Positions 100 through 20,360 of a stretch of DNA of 33,459 bases are shown one piece after another. Where the stretch lies: NCBI GenBank assembly GCA_001825665.1, contig MHXZ01000107.1, forward strand, positions 1-33,459, written 5' to 3'. The translations under genes and the position numbers were made by a program. Every line of letters starts with the position of its first letter. Positions within the stretch are counted from its first letter, which is position 1. This DNA comes from Planctomycetes bacterium GWF2_41_51. GTDB taxonomy: Bacteria; Planctomycetota; Phycisphaerae; Sedimentisphaerales; UBA12454. A model generated the notes under the pieces. That model saw nothing but the letters and a program-made list of their open reading frames with translations, ran no database searches and was not told where the DNA came from.

Positions 100-120
100 C
101 CGCCGAAGGCGGAGAAAATT
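100..120. repeat. CCGCC/GGCGG hairpin repeat, copy 1
   Basis: A 5-bp perfect stem, CCGCC at 100-104 and GGCGG at 108-112, closes a GAA loop and is followed by AGAAAATT. A second copy with the same stem, an AGA loop and the tail ATAAATTT is at 10935-10955. The same stem with different loops and similar tails suggests a dispersed small repeat rather than a terminator, since no T-run follows. Confidence 0.55.
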
Positions 121-217
121 GAGAGTAGAGAGTCGAAAGTTGAGCAGAACGAAACGGACGAGATTTGAGATTTGAAATTTTCCCAAAGGGATGCCTAACG
201 GCAGAGATTTGAGAAAT
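119..217. repeat. Degenerate 7-nt-period repeat arrays
   Basis: Three stretches show an exact 7-nt period with base drift. At 119-146 four units begin TTGAGAG, TAGAGAG, TCGAAAG, TTGAGCA. At 160-180 there are GAGATTT, GAGATTT, GAAATTT. At 204-217 there are GAGATTT and GAGAAAT. The same period and A/T-rich, purine-heavy style recur in four other intergenic regions of this window. Confidence 0.65.
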
Positions 218-610: not shown

Positions 611-639
611 TTGACATTATGGGGGTATTGGAATACACT
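611..639 (+). promoter_or_regulatory. Sigma-70-like promoter, probably for gyrA
   Basis: TTGACA at 611-616 and TACACT at 634-639 are separated by 17 nt, close to the housekeeping consensus. The nearest downstream gene on this strand is gyrA, about 220 nt away, so the transcript would carry a long leader containing two 7-nt-period arrays and one CCCTG...CAGGGCAGGC hairpin. The call rests on consensus match alone. Confidence 0.4.
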
Positions 640-702: not shown

Positions 703-770
703 AGAACATAGAACGCAGAACTTAGAACGTAGAAGGCGTAAATTCGAAATACGAATGTCGAAAATCGAAA
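703..770. repeat. Nine-unit 7-nt-period array
   Basis: Units at 703, 710, 717, 724 and 731 begin AGAA (AGAACAT, AGAACGC, AGAACTT, AGAACGT, AGAAGGC). After 5 nt a second set starts at 743, 750, 757 and 764 (TTCGAAA, TACGAAT, GTCGAAA, ATCGAAA). Spacing is exactly seven throughout each set. This is the clearest heptad array in the window and sits in the gyrA leader. Confidence 0.75.
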
Positions 771-805
771 CCCTGATATGATGCAAAACATCTTACAGGG
801 CAGGC
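771..805 (+). repeat. CCCTG...CAGGGCAGGC hairpin element, copy 2
   Basis: CCCTG (771-775) pairs with CAGGG (796-800); the inner stem is GATG (780-783)/CATC (789-792) around CAAAA; the tail CAGGC ends at 805. It matches the element at 326-366 at both ends but differs in the inner stem. A further weak 7-nt-period stretch (809-836) follows and runs almost to the gyrA start. Confidence 0.6.
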
Positions 806-860
806 AATATCAAATTACGAAAATTCAAAATATTAAAACAGGAAATATTGAGTAAAAAAC

Positions 861-3437
861 ATGGATGAGCAAAAGAAATCGGAACGGGTAGAAGATATAC
901 GAATCTTAGAGGAGATGAAGAATTCGTATATGAATTATGCAATGAGCGTTATCGTATCGAGGGCACTGCCGGATGTACGAGACGGACTCAAGCCTTCGCA
1001 GAGACGTATTCTTGTCGCGATGAATGACCTTAACCTCGGGCCGAGAAGCAAGCACAGAAAATGCGCGAAAATCGTCGGCGATACTTCAGGTAACTATCAT
1101 CCGCATGGAGACCAGGCTACTTATGGAACGCTGGTTCGCATGGGGCAGGACTGGAATATGAGGCATACGCTCGTTGACCCGCAGGGAAATTTCGGAAGTA
1201 TCGATAATGACCCCCCTGCTGCGATGAGGTATACAGAAGCGAGAATGACCGGCGAAGCGATGGAGATGCTTGAAGACCTTAATCGCGATACGGTTGATTT
1301 TATAGCGAACTATGATGAGACACGGGAAGAGCCTGTGGTTCTGCCGAGCAGGTTTCCGAATCTGCTGGTGAACGGTTCGACGGGTATCGCGGTTGGTATG
1401 GCGACGAATCTTCCGCCGCATAATCTTGGCGAGATTTGCGATGCGCTGCTGCTGGTTATCAAAGACCCGAACTGCGGGTTTAAGGATATTATGCAGGTAT
1501 TGCCGGGGCCTGATTTTCCGACTGGCGGGATTATCTGCGGGCGGAAGGGAATTCGCGAGGCGTTCGCGACGGGCAAAGGACATTTGAGGGTTCGCGGCAA
1601 GGTTGAAATCGAAGAGACGAAAAAAGGCCGAAAGCAAATCATCATAAATGAAATACCGTATATGACGGTCAAGACGAGCATCGTTGAGAAAATCGCGGAG
1701 CTTGTTGAGAATGACCAATTACCGGAGGTTTCGGATGTTCGGGATGAGTCGGACAGGAACGGGATGCGGATCGTTGTCGAATTGAAGAAAGACGCAGAAG
1801 AGCAGATTGTGCTGAATAAATTGTACCGGTACACTCCGCTGCAATCGACGTTTGCGATATCGAATGTTGCACTGGTGAATAACCGGCCTGAGACGCTGAA
1901 TATCCGGCAGATGCTGGAGCATTTCATCGGGCACAGGAAGGTTGTGATTCGCAGGCGGACGAGATTTTTGCTGATTCGGTGCAGGAATCGTGCGCATATC
2001 TTGGAGGGATTGATACTTGCGATAAGCGATATCGATGAGATTATCGAATTGATAAAGAAATCGCCTGATGTTGCGACGGCGAAATTGAATTTGATGAATA
2101 AGGCGCTGAAGCTGGTTGAGACTGCGACATTGCAGAAATTGCTGCCGGCAGAGTTTATGGGGCGGGCAAGCGGAGAGGACCAGTTTTTGACGGGGCCTCA
2201 GGCTGACGCGATTTTGATTATGCAGCTTCAACGATTGACGGGGCTTGAAATTGAAAGGCTCGGCAAGGAGTATAGTGCTCTTGTTGAAGAGATTAAAGGA
2301 TACGAGGCGATACTTGCGGATGAGAAACTTGTGCTGGATATAATTACGGAAGATCTGTATGAATTGAAGGACAAGTACACAAATAAACGCAGGACTGAAA
2401 TCGCTGAAGAAATGGAAGAGATGGATATCGAGGACCTTATCGCGGACGAAGAGGTGCTTGTTACATTGAGCCATGGCGGATACGTGAAGCGAATGCCTGT
2501 TGATACTTATCGTAAACAGGGACGCGGCGGAAAAGGGATTATCGGGTCGGATACGCGCGAGGGCGATTTTATTGAGTCGCTGTTTACGGCGTCGACGCAC
2601 GATTATCTGCTGGTGTTTACGAATCGCGGGAAGTGCTACTGGCTGAAGGTTTATAATGTTCCGCAGCTTACGCGGCAGAGCAAGGGGCGGAGTATCGCGA
2701 ACCTTTTGAATATGGGCGATCAGAAAATCACGTCGATTATTAACGTCAGCAATTTTGACGAACGGAATCTTGTGATGGCGACGAAGAACGGCGTTATCAA
2801 GAAATCGGCACTGTCGCTTTATGATAATCCCCGGCCGAGCGGAATTATCGCAGTGAAACTTGATCCGAACGATGATCTTATCGGGGTTGCGCTGACGAAT
2901 GGAAAGAATCATATTATTCTCGGCACGAAAGACGGAATGGCGATCCGGTTCGATGAAGAACAGGCACGGCCAATGGGTCGATCGGCGCACGGCGTAAAGG
3001 GAATCAGTTTGCGAAAAGGCGATTTTGTCGTCGATATGGTTGTTGCGGAAGAGGGAGCATCGCTGCTGACGGTTTGCGAAAAGGGTTACGGCAAACGGAC
3101 GGAGCTTGATGATTATCGCGCACAGAATCGCGGCGGTATCGGGCTGATTAACATTAAGACATCAGATAGAAACGGGAACGTTGTCGCGATAAAGACGGTT
3201 AAAGGCGATGATGATATTATGATTATCACGGCGAAAGGGATTATTATTCGGACGGGACTGGACGAGCTGCGGGAAATCGGCAGGAATACGCAAGGCGTTC
3301 GGCTGATTAAGCTGGATGATGATGATAAGGTTGTCGCGGTTGAACGGGTTGTCGTGGAAGATAAAGATGAAGCTTCTGCGGGTGAGACGCCGAAAGACCC
3401 GGCAAATGAGAACGATAAAACGGAAACCACGAATTAA
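861..3437 (+). CDS. gyrA: DNA gyrase subunit A
   Basis: GyrA is the breakage-reunion subunit of the A2B2 gyrase that introduces negative supercoils. The 858-residue length is normal. The DNA-cleavage domain covers roughly residues 30-480, with the catalytic tyrosine in AMRYTEARM at Y124; the C-terminal beta-pinwheel carries a GyrA box (QGRGGKG) near residue 551, favouring gyrase over topoisomerase IV. The quinolone pocket reads HPHGDQATYGT, with Gln at the E. coli Ser83 position and Gly at the Asp87 position. No gyrB neighbour is visible. The start has no strong Shine-Dalgarno (only GAG about 10 nt upstream). The last codons, encoding TTN, and the TAA stop lie inside a CACGAATTAA-type repeat that continues downstream, so the C-terminus has probably been altered by it. 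The acidic tail after residue 830 is non-conserved. Confidence 0.97.
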   Translation: MDEQKKSERVEDIRILEEMKNSYMNYAMSVIVSRALPDVRDGLKPSQRRILVAMNDLNLGPRSKHRKCAKIVGDTSGNYHPHGDQATYGTLVRMGQDWNMRHTLVDPQGNFGSIDNDPPAAMRYTEARMTGEAMEMLEDLNRDTVDFIANYDETREEPVVLPSRFPNLLVNGSTGIAVGMATNLPPHNLGEICDALLLVIKDPNCGFKDIMQVLPGPDFPTGGIICGRKGIREAFATGKGHLRVRGKVEIEETKKGRKQIIINEIPYMTVKTSIVEKIAELVENDQLPEVSDVRDESDRNGMRIVVELKKDAEEQIVLNKLYRYTPLQSTFAISNVALVNNRPETLNIRQMLEHFIGHRKVVIRRRTRFLLIRCRNRAHILEGLILAISDIDEIIELIKKSPDVATAKLNLMNKALKLVETATLQKLLPAEFMGRASGEDQFLTGPQADAILIMQLQRLTGLEIERLGKEYSALVEEIKGYEAILADEKLVLDIITEDLYELKDKYTNKRRTEIAEEMEEMDIEDLIADEEVLVTLSHGGYVKRMPVDTYRKQGRGGKGIIGSDTREGDFIESLFTASTHDYLLVFTNRGKCYWLKVYNVPQLTRQSKGRSIANLLNMGDQKITSIINVSNFDERNLVMATKNGVIKKSALSLYDNPRPSGIIAVKLDPNDDLIGVALTNGKNHIILGTKDGMAIRFDEEQARPMGRSAHGVKGISLRKGDFVVDMVVAEEGASLLTVCEKGYGKRTELDDYRAQNRGGIGLINIKTSDRNGNVVAIKTVKGDDDIMIITAKGIIIRTGLDELREIGRNTQGVRLIKLDDDDKVVAVERVVVEDKDEASAGETPKDPANENDKTETTN

Positions 3438-3458
3438 CACGAAGAAACACGAATTATA
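3425..3458. repeat. CACGAA 10-nt-period words spanning the gyrA stop
   Basis: Three words begin at 3429, 3439 and 3449 (CACGAATTAA, CACGAAGAAA, CACGAATTAT). The first supplies the gyrA TAA stop codon. A related stretch, CGAATGAACACGAATAA, ends the histidine kinase gene at 31117. The array fills the short gap to the next gene, whose ribosome site AAGGGA begins at its end. Confidence 0.65.
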
Positions 3459-3465
3459 AGGGAAT

Positions 3466-4605
3466 ATGATGAAAAAATTTGTGATTCTATGGATAGGAAT
3501 TTTGTTTAGTGCACAATTTGCTGGTGCGAAAACTATAAATATTGAAGTTACGAATCCGCTGGATGAGAGCAGGTTTGAGACGGTTTCGGTCGATCTTGCG
3601 AAAATCGGGAAATTCAAATATGCCAAGCCGGCGGTTTATTGCGAGAATTTCAAGAGATTCATCGCCTGCCAGGTAATTGATAACGACAGCAACGGCACTA
3701 ATGATGAACTTGTGTTTCAGGCGGAGTTCAAGGCAAGACAGGTATTGCTGTTCGATATTGTCGAAGCGAACGTTGTAAACGAAGTGGAAGTATTGAATGG
3801 CGCGATTGCGAATTATATTCAGCAGAGGAAAGATGATTTTGCGTGGGAGAACGATAAAATCGCGTTCAGGATGTATGGACAGGAATTGCAGCGGACGGAG
3901 CTAACCAGCAGCGGAATCGATGTATGGGTCAAGAAGGTTGGAAGGCCTGTCATGCTCGATTTGTATAAGAAAGGGCATGGTTTTTATCACGCAGATAATC
4001 CTATGGGCATTGATTTTTTTAATGTCGGGCCGACGCTGGGGTGCGGAGGATTGGGCGTTTGGCACAACGGCAAATTGCTGCTGTCGGAAAATTATAATGA
4101 ATGGAAAATTATCGCAAACGGGCCAATCAGAGTTATCTTTGAATTGACGTATAAGCCTTGGGATATCGGCGACGGCAGAAAAGTCGGCGAAGTGAAAAGA
4201 ATAAGCCTTGATAAAGGATGGAATTTTAATCGTATTGAAAGCAAATTCAACCGCGATGTGAATGATACAACGTTCGCAGTCGGAATTGTGAAATGCGAAA
4301 GAGACGGCAAGGAAATTTACGGACCAGAAAATCAATACCTCGGCTATTGGCAAAAAGAGGATAAAAAATTTGGAATCATCGGATGCGGCGTTGTTCTTAC
4401 TAAAGACTCGATAACGTATAAATCCGCGGAAGACGAAAAGAACTATATGCTGCTTGCGAAAGCAAAGAAAAATTCTGTGGTTTACTACGCGGGAGCTGGA
4501 TGGAATAAAAATCCGGGCTTTGAAACAGAAGATAAATGGATTTTGCTAATCAGGAAAATTAAGAGACAAATAAATAATCCTCTGAAAGTAGAAATAAAAA
4601 AATAA
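3466..4605 (+). CDS. Secreted DUF4861 family protein
   Basis: This 379-residue protein has an N-terminal signal peptide (about residues 1-21, ending near AGA) and then matches DUF4861 by its characteristic pattern: AWENDKIAFRMYG near 125-137, SGIDVWVKK, KGHGFYH and the glycine-rich FFNVGPTLGCGGLGVW near 190. DUF4861 proteins are secreted or periplasmic and common in Bacteroidetes and Planctomycetes, often near polysaccharide-degradation genes; their biochemical role is not established. Here it sits between gyrA and holA without other carbohydrate genes. Two in-frame ATGs occur at 3466 and 3469; the AAGGGA site at 3458-3463 suits the second slightly better, so the protein may begin MKKF. Confidence 0.85.
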   Translation: MMKKFVILWIGILFSAQFAGAKTINIEVTNPLDESRFETVSVDLAKIGKFKYAKPAVYCENFKRFIACQVIDNDSNGTNDELVFQAEFKARQVLLFDIVEANVVNEVEVLNGAIANYIQQRKDDFAWENDKIAFRMYGQELQRTELTSSGIDVWVKKVGRPVMLDLYKKGHGFYHADNPMGIDFFNVGPTLGCGGLGVWHNGKLLLSENYNEWKIIANGPIRVIFELTYKPWDIGDGRKVGEVKRISLDKGWNFNRIESKFNRDVNDTTFAVGIVKCERDGKEIYGPENQYLGYWQKEDKKFGIIGCGVVLTKDSITYKSAEDEKNYMLLAKAKKNSVVYYAGAGWNKNPGFETEDKWILLIRKIKRQINNPLKVEIKK

Positions 4606-4606
4606 A

Positions 4607-4639
4607 TCAGCCACAAAGACATTAAATTAACGACGAACG
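4607..4639. repeat. AGCCAC-type word after the DUF4861 stop
   Basis: AGCCACAAAGACATT starts 3 nt after the preceding TAA and runs to the holA start, which itself reads ATGCCACAGACG. It resembles the AGCCACTAAGG words at 5630 and AGCCACAGAG at 12075. No Shine-Dalgarno remains in this spacer. Confidence 0.45.
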
Positions 4640-5611
4640 ATGCCACAGACGAAAAAGACAAATTGCAAACCGATATATGTAGTCGCGGGGAAGGATGAAT
4701 TTCTTGTCGCGGAACGGGTTGCGGCATTGGTGAATCAACTGCTGACACCTGACCAGATGCAGATGTGTTTGTGGCGGGCGGATGCAGATAAAGTTACGGC
4801 GGTTGAGGTTTTTGATGAACTTCGGACACTGCCCTTTCTGGCGGAAAAACGAGTTGTTGTGCTGGCGGGAGCGGATGATTTTATAAGTAATAATCGCGAG
4901 CTTCTGGAGAAATATTTTGAAAGTCCGGCAAACAGCGGTGTGCTGATTCTCTCTGTCGGTACGTGGCATTCGAATACAAGGCTGGCAAAAATATTGCCGA
5001 AGATGGGAGAAGTTATTGCGGTCGGGGAAATAAAATCGCGGGAGCTTGTTTCGTACATTACCGATTATGCAAGCCAGCAGGGAAAAAATCTTTCATATAA
5101 CGCAGCGCAAATGCTGATAGAATTCGCGGGTGAGGAGCCGGGGATTTTGCGGAATGAAATCGATAAACTGGCGACGTTTGTGAATTCGGCGAAAAATATA
5201 ACTGAAAAACATATTTCGGAAGTTGTCGGTCGAAACAGGGCTTTCGGGGCGTTTGAGGTTATCGATTCTATGATGGCGGCGGATGCGGGCAAGGCTTTGG
5301 AGCAGCTTCGGTCGATGTTCGAGTCGGATAAAGATTCGGAATATACTATTCTCGGCGCGTTCGCGTGGCATTTTCGCAGGATGTTCAGCGCAGCCGCCCT
5401 GCTTGCCAAAGGCGAACGGCCTGATATGATTGCAAGAAAACTTCGGATATGGAACCAGCAGGAATTTTTCGGGATTATTAAAAAGACAGGCCTAAAGAAA
5501 ATCGGCGATTGTCTGCGGCAGCTTGCGGAATTCGATTACCAGATCAAGACCGGCAAAGCAACAGCGCAAACAGCGATAGAGTCGATGATAATACAGTTCG
5601 CGGGACGATAG
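4640..5611 (+). CDS. holA: DNA polymerase III subunit delta
   Basis: HolA is the clamp-loader wrench subunit that opens the beta sliding clamp. The 323-residue length is typical. The start region KPIYVVAGKDEFLVAERV (residues 11-28) is the usual beginning of the N-terminal AAA+-like domain, and PFLAEKRVVVLAGADDF and the later EIDKLATFV and FAWHFRRMFSAAALLAKG segments fit HolA. Delta lacks a working Walker A motif, and none is seen here. The start codon has no Shine-Dalgarno because the 34-nt gap behind the DUF4861 gene is repeat-derived, so the exact N-terminus is less certain than the identity. Confidence 0.9.
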   Translation: MPQTKKTNCKPIYVVAGKDEFLVAERVAALVNQLLTPDQMQMCLWRADADKVTAVEVFDELRTLPFLAEKRVVVLAGADDFISNNRELLEKYFESPANSGVLILSVGTWHSNTRLAKILPKMGEVIAVGEIKSRELVSYITDYASQQGKNLSYNAAQMLIEFAGEEPGILRNEIDKLATFVNSAKNITEKHISEVVGRNRAFGAFEVIDSMMAADAGKALEQLRSMFESDKDSEYTILGAFAWHFRRMFSAAALLAKGERPDMIARKLRIWNQQEFFGIIKKTGLKKIGDCLRQLAEFDYQIKTGKATAQTAIESMIIQFAGR

Positions 5612-12154: not shown

Positions 12155-12161
12155 ATTATTT

Positions 12162-12189
12162 AAAATTTAAGATTTAAAATTTAAAATTT
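12162..12189. repeat. 7-nt-period AAAATTT array upstream of argH
   Basis: Four units spaced exactly 7 nt (AAAATTT at 12162, AAGATTT at 12169, AAAATTT at 12176 and 12183) lie about 40 nt before the argH start. The composition differs from the arrays near gyrA but the period is the same. Confidence 0.6.
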
Positions 12190-20268: not shown

Positions 20269-20360
20269 AAATCCGAAATTCGAAGTTCGGAATTCGAAAT
20301 TATAAACTCGAATTTCTCCATAGGACGCCTCAGGGCGGGATTTCGTTTTTCGGATTTTTT
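20269..20360 (+). terminator. Candidate terminator after pnp built from a 7-nt-period array
   Basis: AAATCCGAAA (20269-20278) pairs with TTTCGGATTT (20348-20357), 10 bp, followed by T residues to 20360. Inside, 7-nt-period units (TCCGAAA at 20272, then units at 20279, 20286, 20293, 20300 and 20307, most of TTCGAA type) can pair further with CGAATTTC near 20309-20316. A repeat array seems to supply the stem. The loop is long, so termination efficiency is uncertain. Confidence 0.4.

Follow-up and report, generated by a model that had tools for sequence, protein, structure and literature searches.

The window analysed here, a stretch of 33,459 nt taken as a whole, comes from a planctomycete of the Sedimentisphaerales (Phycisphaerae), and its gyrA has named relatives in MAGs, e.g. 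Phycisphaerales fen_1357 and Planctomycetes GWF2_42_9. An array of degenerate heptamers at 703–770 sits downstream of the conserved promoter of gyrA and ahead of its start codon (Table 1).

Table 1. Features of the window. IVP, 23S_rRNA_IVP (S23) family; fractions are matches at lag 7; values in brackets are array similarities.
Feature	Position	Strand	Basis
gyrA	861..3437	+	Pfam DNA_topoisoIV and DNA_gyraseA_C
gyrA promoter, TTGACA, 17 nt, TACACT	611..639	+	sequence; near-identical promoters aligned upstream of relatives' gyrA
Heptamer array, five AGAANNN units (AGAACAT AGAACGC AGAACTT AGAACGT AGAAGGC)	703..737	+	
Linking unit GTAAATT, 7-nt register maintained	738..744	+	sequence
Heptamer array, four CGAANNN units (CGAAATA CGAATGT CGAAAAT CGAAA)	745..770	+	
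Separate 35-nt hairpin repeat CCCTGATA..TACAGGGCAGGC at the inner edge of the array	771..805	+	gap in sister leader, copies, fold
Probable inner arm part AATATCAAATTACGAAAATTCAAAATATTAAAACAGG	806..842	+	resembles GAAACAATATCAAAACCCAAATGTTAAAATG of an intact G034 element; by eye, unscored by profile
Lag-7 array, 15/21	119..146	+	
Heptamer array GAGATTT, 14/21	160..180	+	like IVP flank array of L217 (0.86)
Heptamer array ATTTAAA, 19/21 (at 12162)	12158..12189	+	resembles IVP flanks
CGAANNN array with inverted partner about 60 bp on, GC-rich centre	20269..20358	+	arm profile, fold

Our analysis confirmed that the heptamer array at 703–770 is real. Its units begin at 703, 710, 717, 724, 731, 738, 745, 752, 759, and 766, which makes ten units, with xGAA as the constant part and a single GTAA unit. 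The first-pass annotation had described two arrays, at 703 and 743; the 7-nt step holds, but the halves are not separate, as the distance from 703 to 745 is 42 nt, i.e. six times seven, and the linking unit keeps both in a single register. TRF also assigned a period of 7 to both halves (703–734 and 740–770). In the best 63-nt segment of the leader (641–860), 42 of 63 positions matched at lag 7, which was equalled by none of 5000 dinucleotide shuffles, whereas lags 4–6 and 8–12 gave 19–25 matches that were equalled by 2218–4943 of the 5000 shuffles.

Among 12 relatives of the same family, only the closest one, G005, whose gyrA is 92% like that of the window, carries a derived form of this array. 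None was found in the other readable gyrA leaders, and most relatives have short, array-free leaders; in one family genome (L288), the contig ends inside gyrA, which makes the leader unreadable, and a CGAANNN-like arm lies downstream of gyrA. The G005 leader reads AGAACTC GGAATGC AGAAG, which corresponds to about three AGAA units in comparison to five in the window, and continues with CTAANNN units in place of the window's CGAANNN, every CGAA having changed to CTAA. The initial idea that the leader of gyrA holds a phased binding array finds no support, as close relatives lack the array and no fixed binding sequence is kept. The 35-nt hairpin is missing from the G005 leader as well (34-nt alignment gap). 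It belongs to a repeat of 35–41 nt that also occurs at 326–366 of the window and has five copies in the genome (C75 twice, C93 once, C107 twice) and none in the control; the z score of its DNA fold at 771–805 is -2.8.

Beyond the gyrA leader, the first-pass annotation had listed further arrays at 119, 160, 204, 809, 12162, and 20272, of which those at 119, 160, 12162, and 20272 are real. The candidate at 204 matched at only 9/21 positions at lag 7, and that at 809 at 12/21, with lag 8 fitting better (14/21), and both are therefore unsupported. Throughout a 755-kb sample of the window's genome, partly picked for carrying CGAANNN matches, periodic windows at lag 7 had a density of 18 per 100 kb in intergenic DNA, compared with 0.4 in coding DNA and 0 in shuffles. 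The stretches not so picked (565 kb, 55 kb intergenic) had 8 lag-7 arrays versus 0.5 in shuffles, with 0–5 at other lags. The suspected excess at lag 7 thus exists and is intergenic and lag-specific. A small excess of periodic arrays was also seen at lag 11 in intergenic DNA of this genome (5 versus 0.45 in shuffles). As the arrays are rare, global intergenic autocorrelation at lag 7 shows only a slight excess (z 4.6, below lags 2, 3, 9, 10, and 15), and local counts of periodic windows are the informative measure.

The arrays of this genome differ in composition (CGAANNN, AGAANNN, TAACTGA, AAAATTC, CCCTATA, and TTCACTA), and this variety, together with the degenerate units, agrees with the first-pass view that they do not derive from one microsatellite. 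A pattern of four AGAANNN units matched the genome 16 times, at about 11 places, and the reversed control 0 times. AGAANNN arrays often directly precede a start codon, in sense orientation (L363, L367, L369, L371). Three of them, two at L369 and one at L371, share the context ATACRTAAATAAAGGASTTATG, and two arrays with this context have the same unit order and face outward, 1.9 kb apart. An inverted partner (similarity at least 0.7) within 2 kb was found for 2 of 34 arrays, indicating that solo arrays predominate in the sample of this genome.

The CGAANNN arrays of G042 and G053, two genomes of the same order, occur as inverted pairs about 100–130 bp apart. In two orthologous cases, the inverted pair is about 400 bp apart and encloses an open frame whose translation we recognised as a four-helix-bundle, IVP-like protein. 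A search with PF05635 (23S_rRNA_IVP) detected seven genes in each of the two genomes and three in the window's genome. Each of these three has an adjacent array, the three heptamers differ, and two of the genes are flanked on both sides: L159 lies between TAACTGA-type arrays and L161 between GTGAATA-type arrays, and for L160 an array, the AT-rich AAATTTT, was seen on one side only.

We then considered 117 PF05635 genes from Planctomycetota, Bacteroidota, Ignavibacteria, Cloacimonadota, Marinimicrobia, Geomonas, and cyanobacterial plasmids. IVP genes of several phyla carry period-7 flanking arrays: about half of the 117 genes have lag-7 arrays on both sides, and other lags contribute little, except for a minor lag-8 class. 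For the 72 genes of the window's order, arrays of 15/21 or more within 250 nt of the gene were found to the left of 45, to the right of 48, and on both sides of 37. At lag 8, the respective numbers were 12, 7, and 4, and at lags 4–6, 9–13, and 15 they were 0–3 each, lag 14 being a harmonic. With a threshold of 16/21, 293 control ORFs of the same genomes had arrays to the left in 13 cases, to the right in 13, and on both sides in none, compared with 36, 41, and 24 for the IVP genes. In Bacteroidota, Ignavibacteria, Cloacimonadota, Geomonas, and Marinimicrobia (30 loci, one masked), both sides were occupied at 18 of 29 usable loci. Octamer arrays with an 8-nt step occur at a minority of IVP loci, L307 and L308 among them, lag 8 being the sole other enriched lag.

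The IVP genes on cyanobacterial plasmids (n = 15), annotated as 'four helix bundle protein' or 'S23 ribosomal protein' and in one case as 'hypothetical protein', have arrays to the left in 13 cases, to the right in 9, and on both sides in 8. Their flanks carry GGGAGTA, GGGAACA, GGGTGTA, and AAAAGCT. Such STRR-like heptamers fit the earlier suggestion that the cyanobacterial STRR repeats are the closest described class. The annotated cyanobacterial loci lie among protein genes, e.g. nrd, cas, and tra. Three of the plasmid genes (L349, L355, L356) are located within CRISPR-cas operons (cas6/cas4; cas10/cmr3-family gene).

Within an element, the left and right arrays are mirror images. In the window's order, the similarity of left arrays to the reverse complement of their own right arrays was 0.738, compared with 0.496 ± 0.018 after permutation (maximum of 10,000: 0.570), and in the other phyla it was 0.795 versus 0.537 ± 0.026. 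In cyanobacteria, the left and right arrays are GGGAGTA and TACTCCC in Nostoc edaphicum and GGGAACA and TGTTCCC in Nostoc sp. C052. Between elements, the heptamer is free (AGTAATC, GGACAGA, GTTCGTA, CAAAATG, GGCATAA, AGTGAAA, and others), and the constant step with changing sequence, which the first-pass annotation had pointed out for the arrays of the window, is thus also found from element to element. Across 59 genomes, IVP copy number correlated with the number of CGAANNN arrays (rho 0.59, p 1e-6, relatedness uncorrected), and the median number of these arrays was 12 in genomes with IVP and 1 in genomes without. IVP-less copies occur in dozens per genome and fold as hairpins at the DNA level (z -2.7 to -7.4). 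A phage origin was also considered and rejected, as one IVP query against a phage collection gave no match.

To see whether gene and arrays behave as one unit, we compared ten orthologous sites, either between G034 and G037 or between G042 and G053. At eight of the ten, the gene and its arrays were jointly absent from one genome (L262/L279, L297/L345, L298/L331, L300/L339, L301/L335, L307/L346, L308/L325, L309/L317), with a short octamer-like array retained at the L335 site. Another pair, L296/L344, had unrelated DNA in one genome. As array and gene are gained or lost jointly, the arrays belong to the element. No clear target-site duplication was seen in the occupied/empty pairs, whose flanks, 75–90% alike, have diverged too much for a precise reading. 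The remaining pair, L303/L342, lies in a tRNA–tRNA gap; where one genome has its IVP element, the sister has an element that lacks IVP and is built of a different heptamer, as if the site had been reused.

The unit sequences themselves change quickly. In the orthologous elements L130 and L119, all four NNN triplets of the left arm differ by position, although CGAA is kept and the IVP frame is largely conserved. What the CGAANNN elements have in common is limited to CGAA and inner motifs. Identical units, as expected from slippage in a simple microsatellite, were not found; the units share a 4-nt anchor and draw their NNN from a restricted vocabulary. Of 228 CGAANNN triplets in G042 and G053, which are non-independent by position, 56 were ATC, 22 GCA, 15 ACT, and 15 TAT. 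The vocabulary of these arrays is small (ATC, GCA, ACT, TAT, ATT, ACA, TGT) and looks as if whole units had been copied. We also examined whether the NNN letters of the two CGAANNN arms pair with each other; this was rejected (0.386 versus 0.398 by chance), which weakens a simple hairpin model.

With these elements at hand, the arrays of the window can be placed. A profile of the G042/G053 arms matched the window at 740–771 (E 0.001) and at 20269–20317 (E 0.0003), in both cases without a match in the reversed sequence. The units at 745–770 resemble the left arm of the planctomycete CGAANNN element. The best relatives of the AGAACNN array among 154 IVP-flank arrays were both arms of the Geomonas silvestris IVP element L249 (0.82, 0.79). 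There is no IVP gene in the window and no inverted partner near 703–770. As this array is like IVP arms and has neither an IVP gene nor an inverted partner nearby, the gyrA-leader arrays are most likely solo, decayed arms that were left by or copied from IVP elements. They are probably passive, and a mild effect on the gyrA leader RNA is possible. The array at 12158 resembles the left array of the IVP gene L160 of the same genome (0.82), L163 (0.88), and also L252. The array at 20272 (17/21 at lag 7) and its inverted partner make up an IVP-less element that can fold as a hairpin (DNA fold z -3.3).

We consider it likely that the arrays are the arms of small insertion elements that form a widespread class. 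This goes beyond the first-pass annotation, in which neither the IVP gene between inverted arrays nor the separate hairpin at 771–805 had been noticed. The intact form consists of a heptamer array, a gene of about 350 nt for a four-helix bundle (Pfam 23S_rRNA_IVP, S23), and an inverted heptamer array, and is an element of about 400–900 bp that lies inserted between genes; IVP-less forms of about 130–190 bp and solo arms are common. The IVP protein is a homopentamer (PMC4990558), and 2GSC is a structure of the family. With less certainty, the two arms may base-pair to form a hairpin, either in single-stranded DNA or in RNA, and the pentamer might recognise this hairpin through its 7-nt geometry and not through its sequence. 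Unit-length slippage together with copying among units and arms would preserve the step and the mirror symmetry while the letters drift, and the strand-transfer activity would be supplied from elsewhere. Two candidates for such a partner were rejected. RVT_1 is found neither in the window's genome nor in eight others with 5–13 IVP genes and shows no correlation (rho 0.09), and Y1_Tnp, which is present in 52 of 59 genomes, correlates weakly (rho 0.33) and is not required, as G003, G016, G023, and G043 have IVP elements and no Y1_Tnp. Some observations fit the insertion elements less well: the window is devoid of an IVP gene, the arrays of its genome are mostly solo with the two exceptions among 34, the sense AGAANNN arrays upstream of start codons would also suit a role in leader RNA, and neither a target-site duplication nor a transposase was found. 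More tentatively, and with doubt slightly prevailing, we envisage a class of mobile elements whose ends would be recognised by their mirror symmetry and by a period of 7 nt, or sometimes 8 nt, and whose sole gene would be IVP; STRR, TAACTGA, and GGGAATC repeats would then be its footprints, and unit copying would rewrite the heptamer and keep the step.

As several AGAANNN arrays stand in sense before start codons, three of them with ATACRTAAATAAAGGASTTATG, and the gyrA arrays are within the leader, they could in principle be leader-RNA (5' UTR) elements, i.e. single-stranded repeats to which an S1-, Csp-, or Csr-like protein binds and which tune the translation of gyrA and other genes. TAACTGA repeats are similarly placed, and a role in translation has been proposed for them in Beggiatoaceae (MacGregor 2015, PMC4679880). 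However, the array is missing from nearly all gyrA leaders of relatives, the exchange of the CGAA anchor for CTAA between sister species means that no fixed RNA motif is kept, and the inverted pairs around IVP genes are left unexplained, so that we regard this role as unlikely. Quite unlikely is also that replication slippage with a preferred length of 7, a proposal of Mrazek 2007 as cited in PMC4679880, makes the intergenic heptamer arrays and that the link to IVP is secondary. Slippage alone would yield identical and not degenerate units, no mirror-image arrays around one gene family, and no joint loss with the gene, and the strong and lag-specific tie to one gene family partly refutes it, even though heptanucleotides are the commonest class of 5–11-nt repeats in many genomes and the number of AGAA units varies between the sisters. 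Within the element, slippage may supply gain and loss of units.

The arrays could also be ends of ordinary, group-specific MITEs of a transposase, e.g. of the Y1/REP type, that are heptamer-structured by chance, which is in line with dozens of IVP-less copies per genome, hairpin-forming ends, and the wide occurrence of Y1_Tnp. We consider this very improbable, as elements within one genome have ends of unshared sequence in place of fixed termini, the four genomes named above have IVP elements without Y1_Tnp, and the link spans several phyla. Least credible to us is that IVP elements prefer pre-existing heptamer arrays, which would make the arrays targets that the element itself does not include. 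In that case, the copies flanking the insert would be direct instead of inverted; most empty sites are also array-free (L279, L317, L325, L331, L339, L345, L346). A target role would agree with two pairs in which the IVP-free site holds another periodic array (L335) or an IVP-less element (L342), and with a weak likeness between heptamer and empty site, which was seen over 8 pairs (p 0.02). Two of these pairs have octamer arrays, to which a 7-mer profile is ill-suited, and we treat copying of the heptamer from the target site as no more than a lead.

Insertion elements with arrays as arms have their nearest counterpart in the intervening sequences (IVS) of bacterial 23S rRNA genes, which carry an S23/IVP ORF in Coxiella and Leptospira (PMC4990558). 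Both share the protein family and the arrangement of an IVP ORF between complementary, stem-capable ends: the full elements encode the PF05635 protein, the window itself having arrays only, and the permutation of the arrays and the hairpin folds of the IVP-less forms indicate ends that can pair. IVS, however, reside in rRNA helices and are cut from the RNA by RNase III, whereas the elements described here lie between protein genes, as in cyanobacteria, or, with the gyrA copy, in an mRNA leader. Each genome also has many of them, and their ends are period-7 arrays whose sequence is free; heptamer arrays in IVS are not mentioned in the papers that we consulted.

The STRR repeats and the GGGGAYT/GGGAATC heptamers of Nostoc and Xanthomonas, the latter with 70–75 convergent inverted pairs (Rehm 2015, PMC4692102), resemble our arrays as tandem, degenerate, and intergenic 7-nt units that are dispersed in many copies and several sequences. 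They were viewed as repeats or G-quadruplex motifs without a gene, whereas the arrays described here are tied to IVP genes, also in cyanobacteria. The AGAANNN and CGAANNN units of the window are presumably unlike the published STRR1–3 sequences. The TAACTGA direct repeats of Beggiatoaceae, cyanobacteria, and Bacteroidetes (MacGregor 2015, PMC4679880) likewise are heptamer arrays that often lie just before start codons, and the same heptamer family flanks the IVP gene L159; they were interpreted, differently from here, as translation-control sites of one fixed heptamer, and the term 'helix bundle' is absent from the main text of that study. Within the protein family, there is a further parallel. 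Avd of diversity-generating retroelements is a pentameric four-helix bundle related to IVP. Avd partners a reverse transcriptase, whereas RVT_1 went undetected in the window's genome and in several IVP-rich relatives. Heptamer repeats and IVP ORFs in rRNA intervening sequences with complementary ends are already known, and what appears to be new is the IVS-like element between genes with ends defined by period. Our search, mostly of papers outside subscription journals, found no publication that connects helix-bundle or IVP proteins with heptamers or tandem repeats.

If the arrays are indeed the arms of IVP elements, the heptamer repeats of cyanobacteria, Beggiatoaceae, Xanthomonas, and others would have one origin, and the IVP/S23 protein family, whose structure 2GSC dates from long ago, would obtain a natural setting. 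The question of 'why seven?' would become testable by asking whether the IVP pentamer reads the repeat spacing and what copies the units. It would also call for caution against taking heptamer arrays in leaders as regulatory sites.
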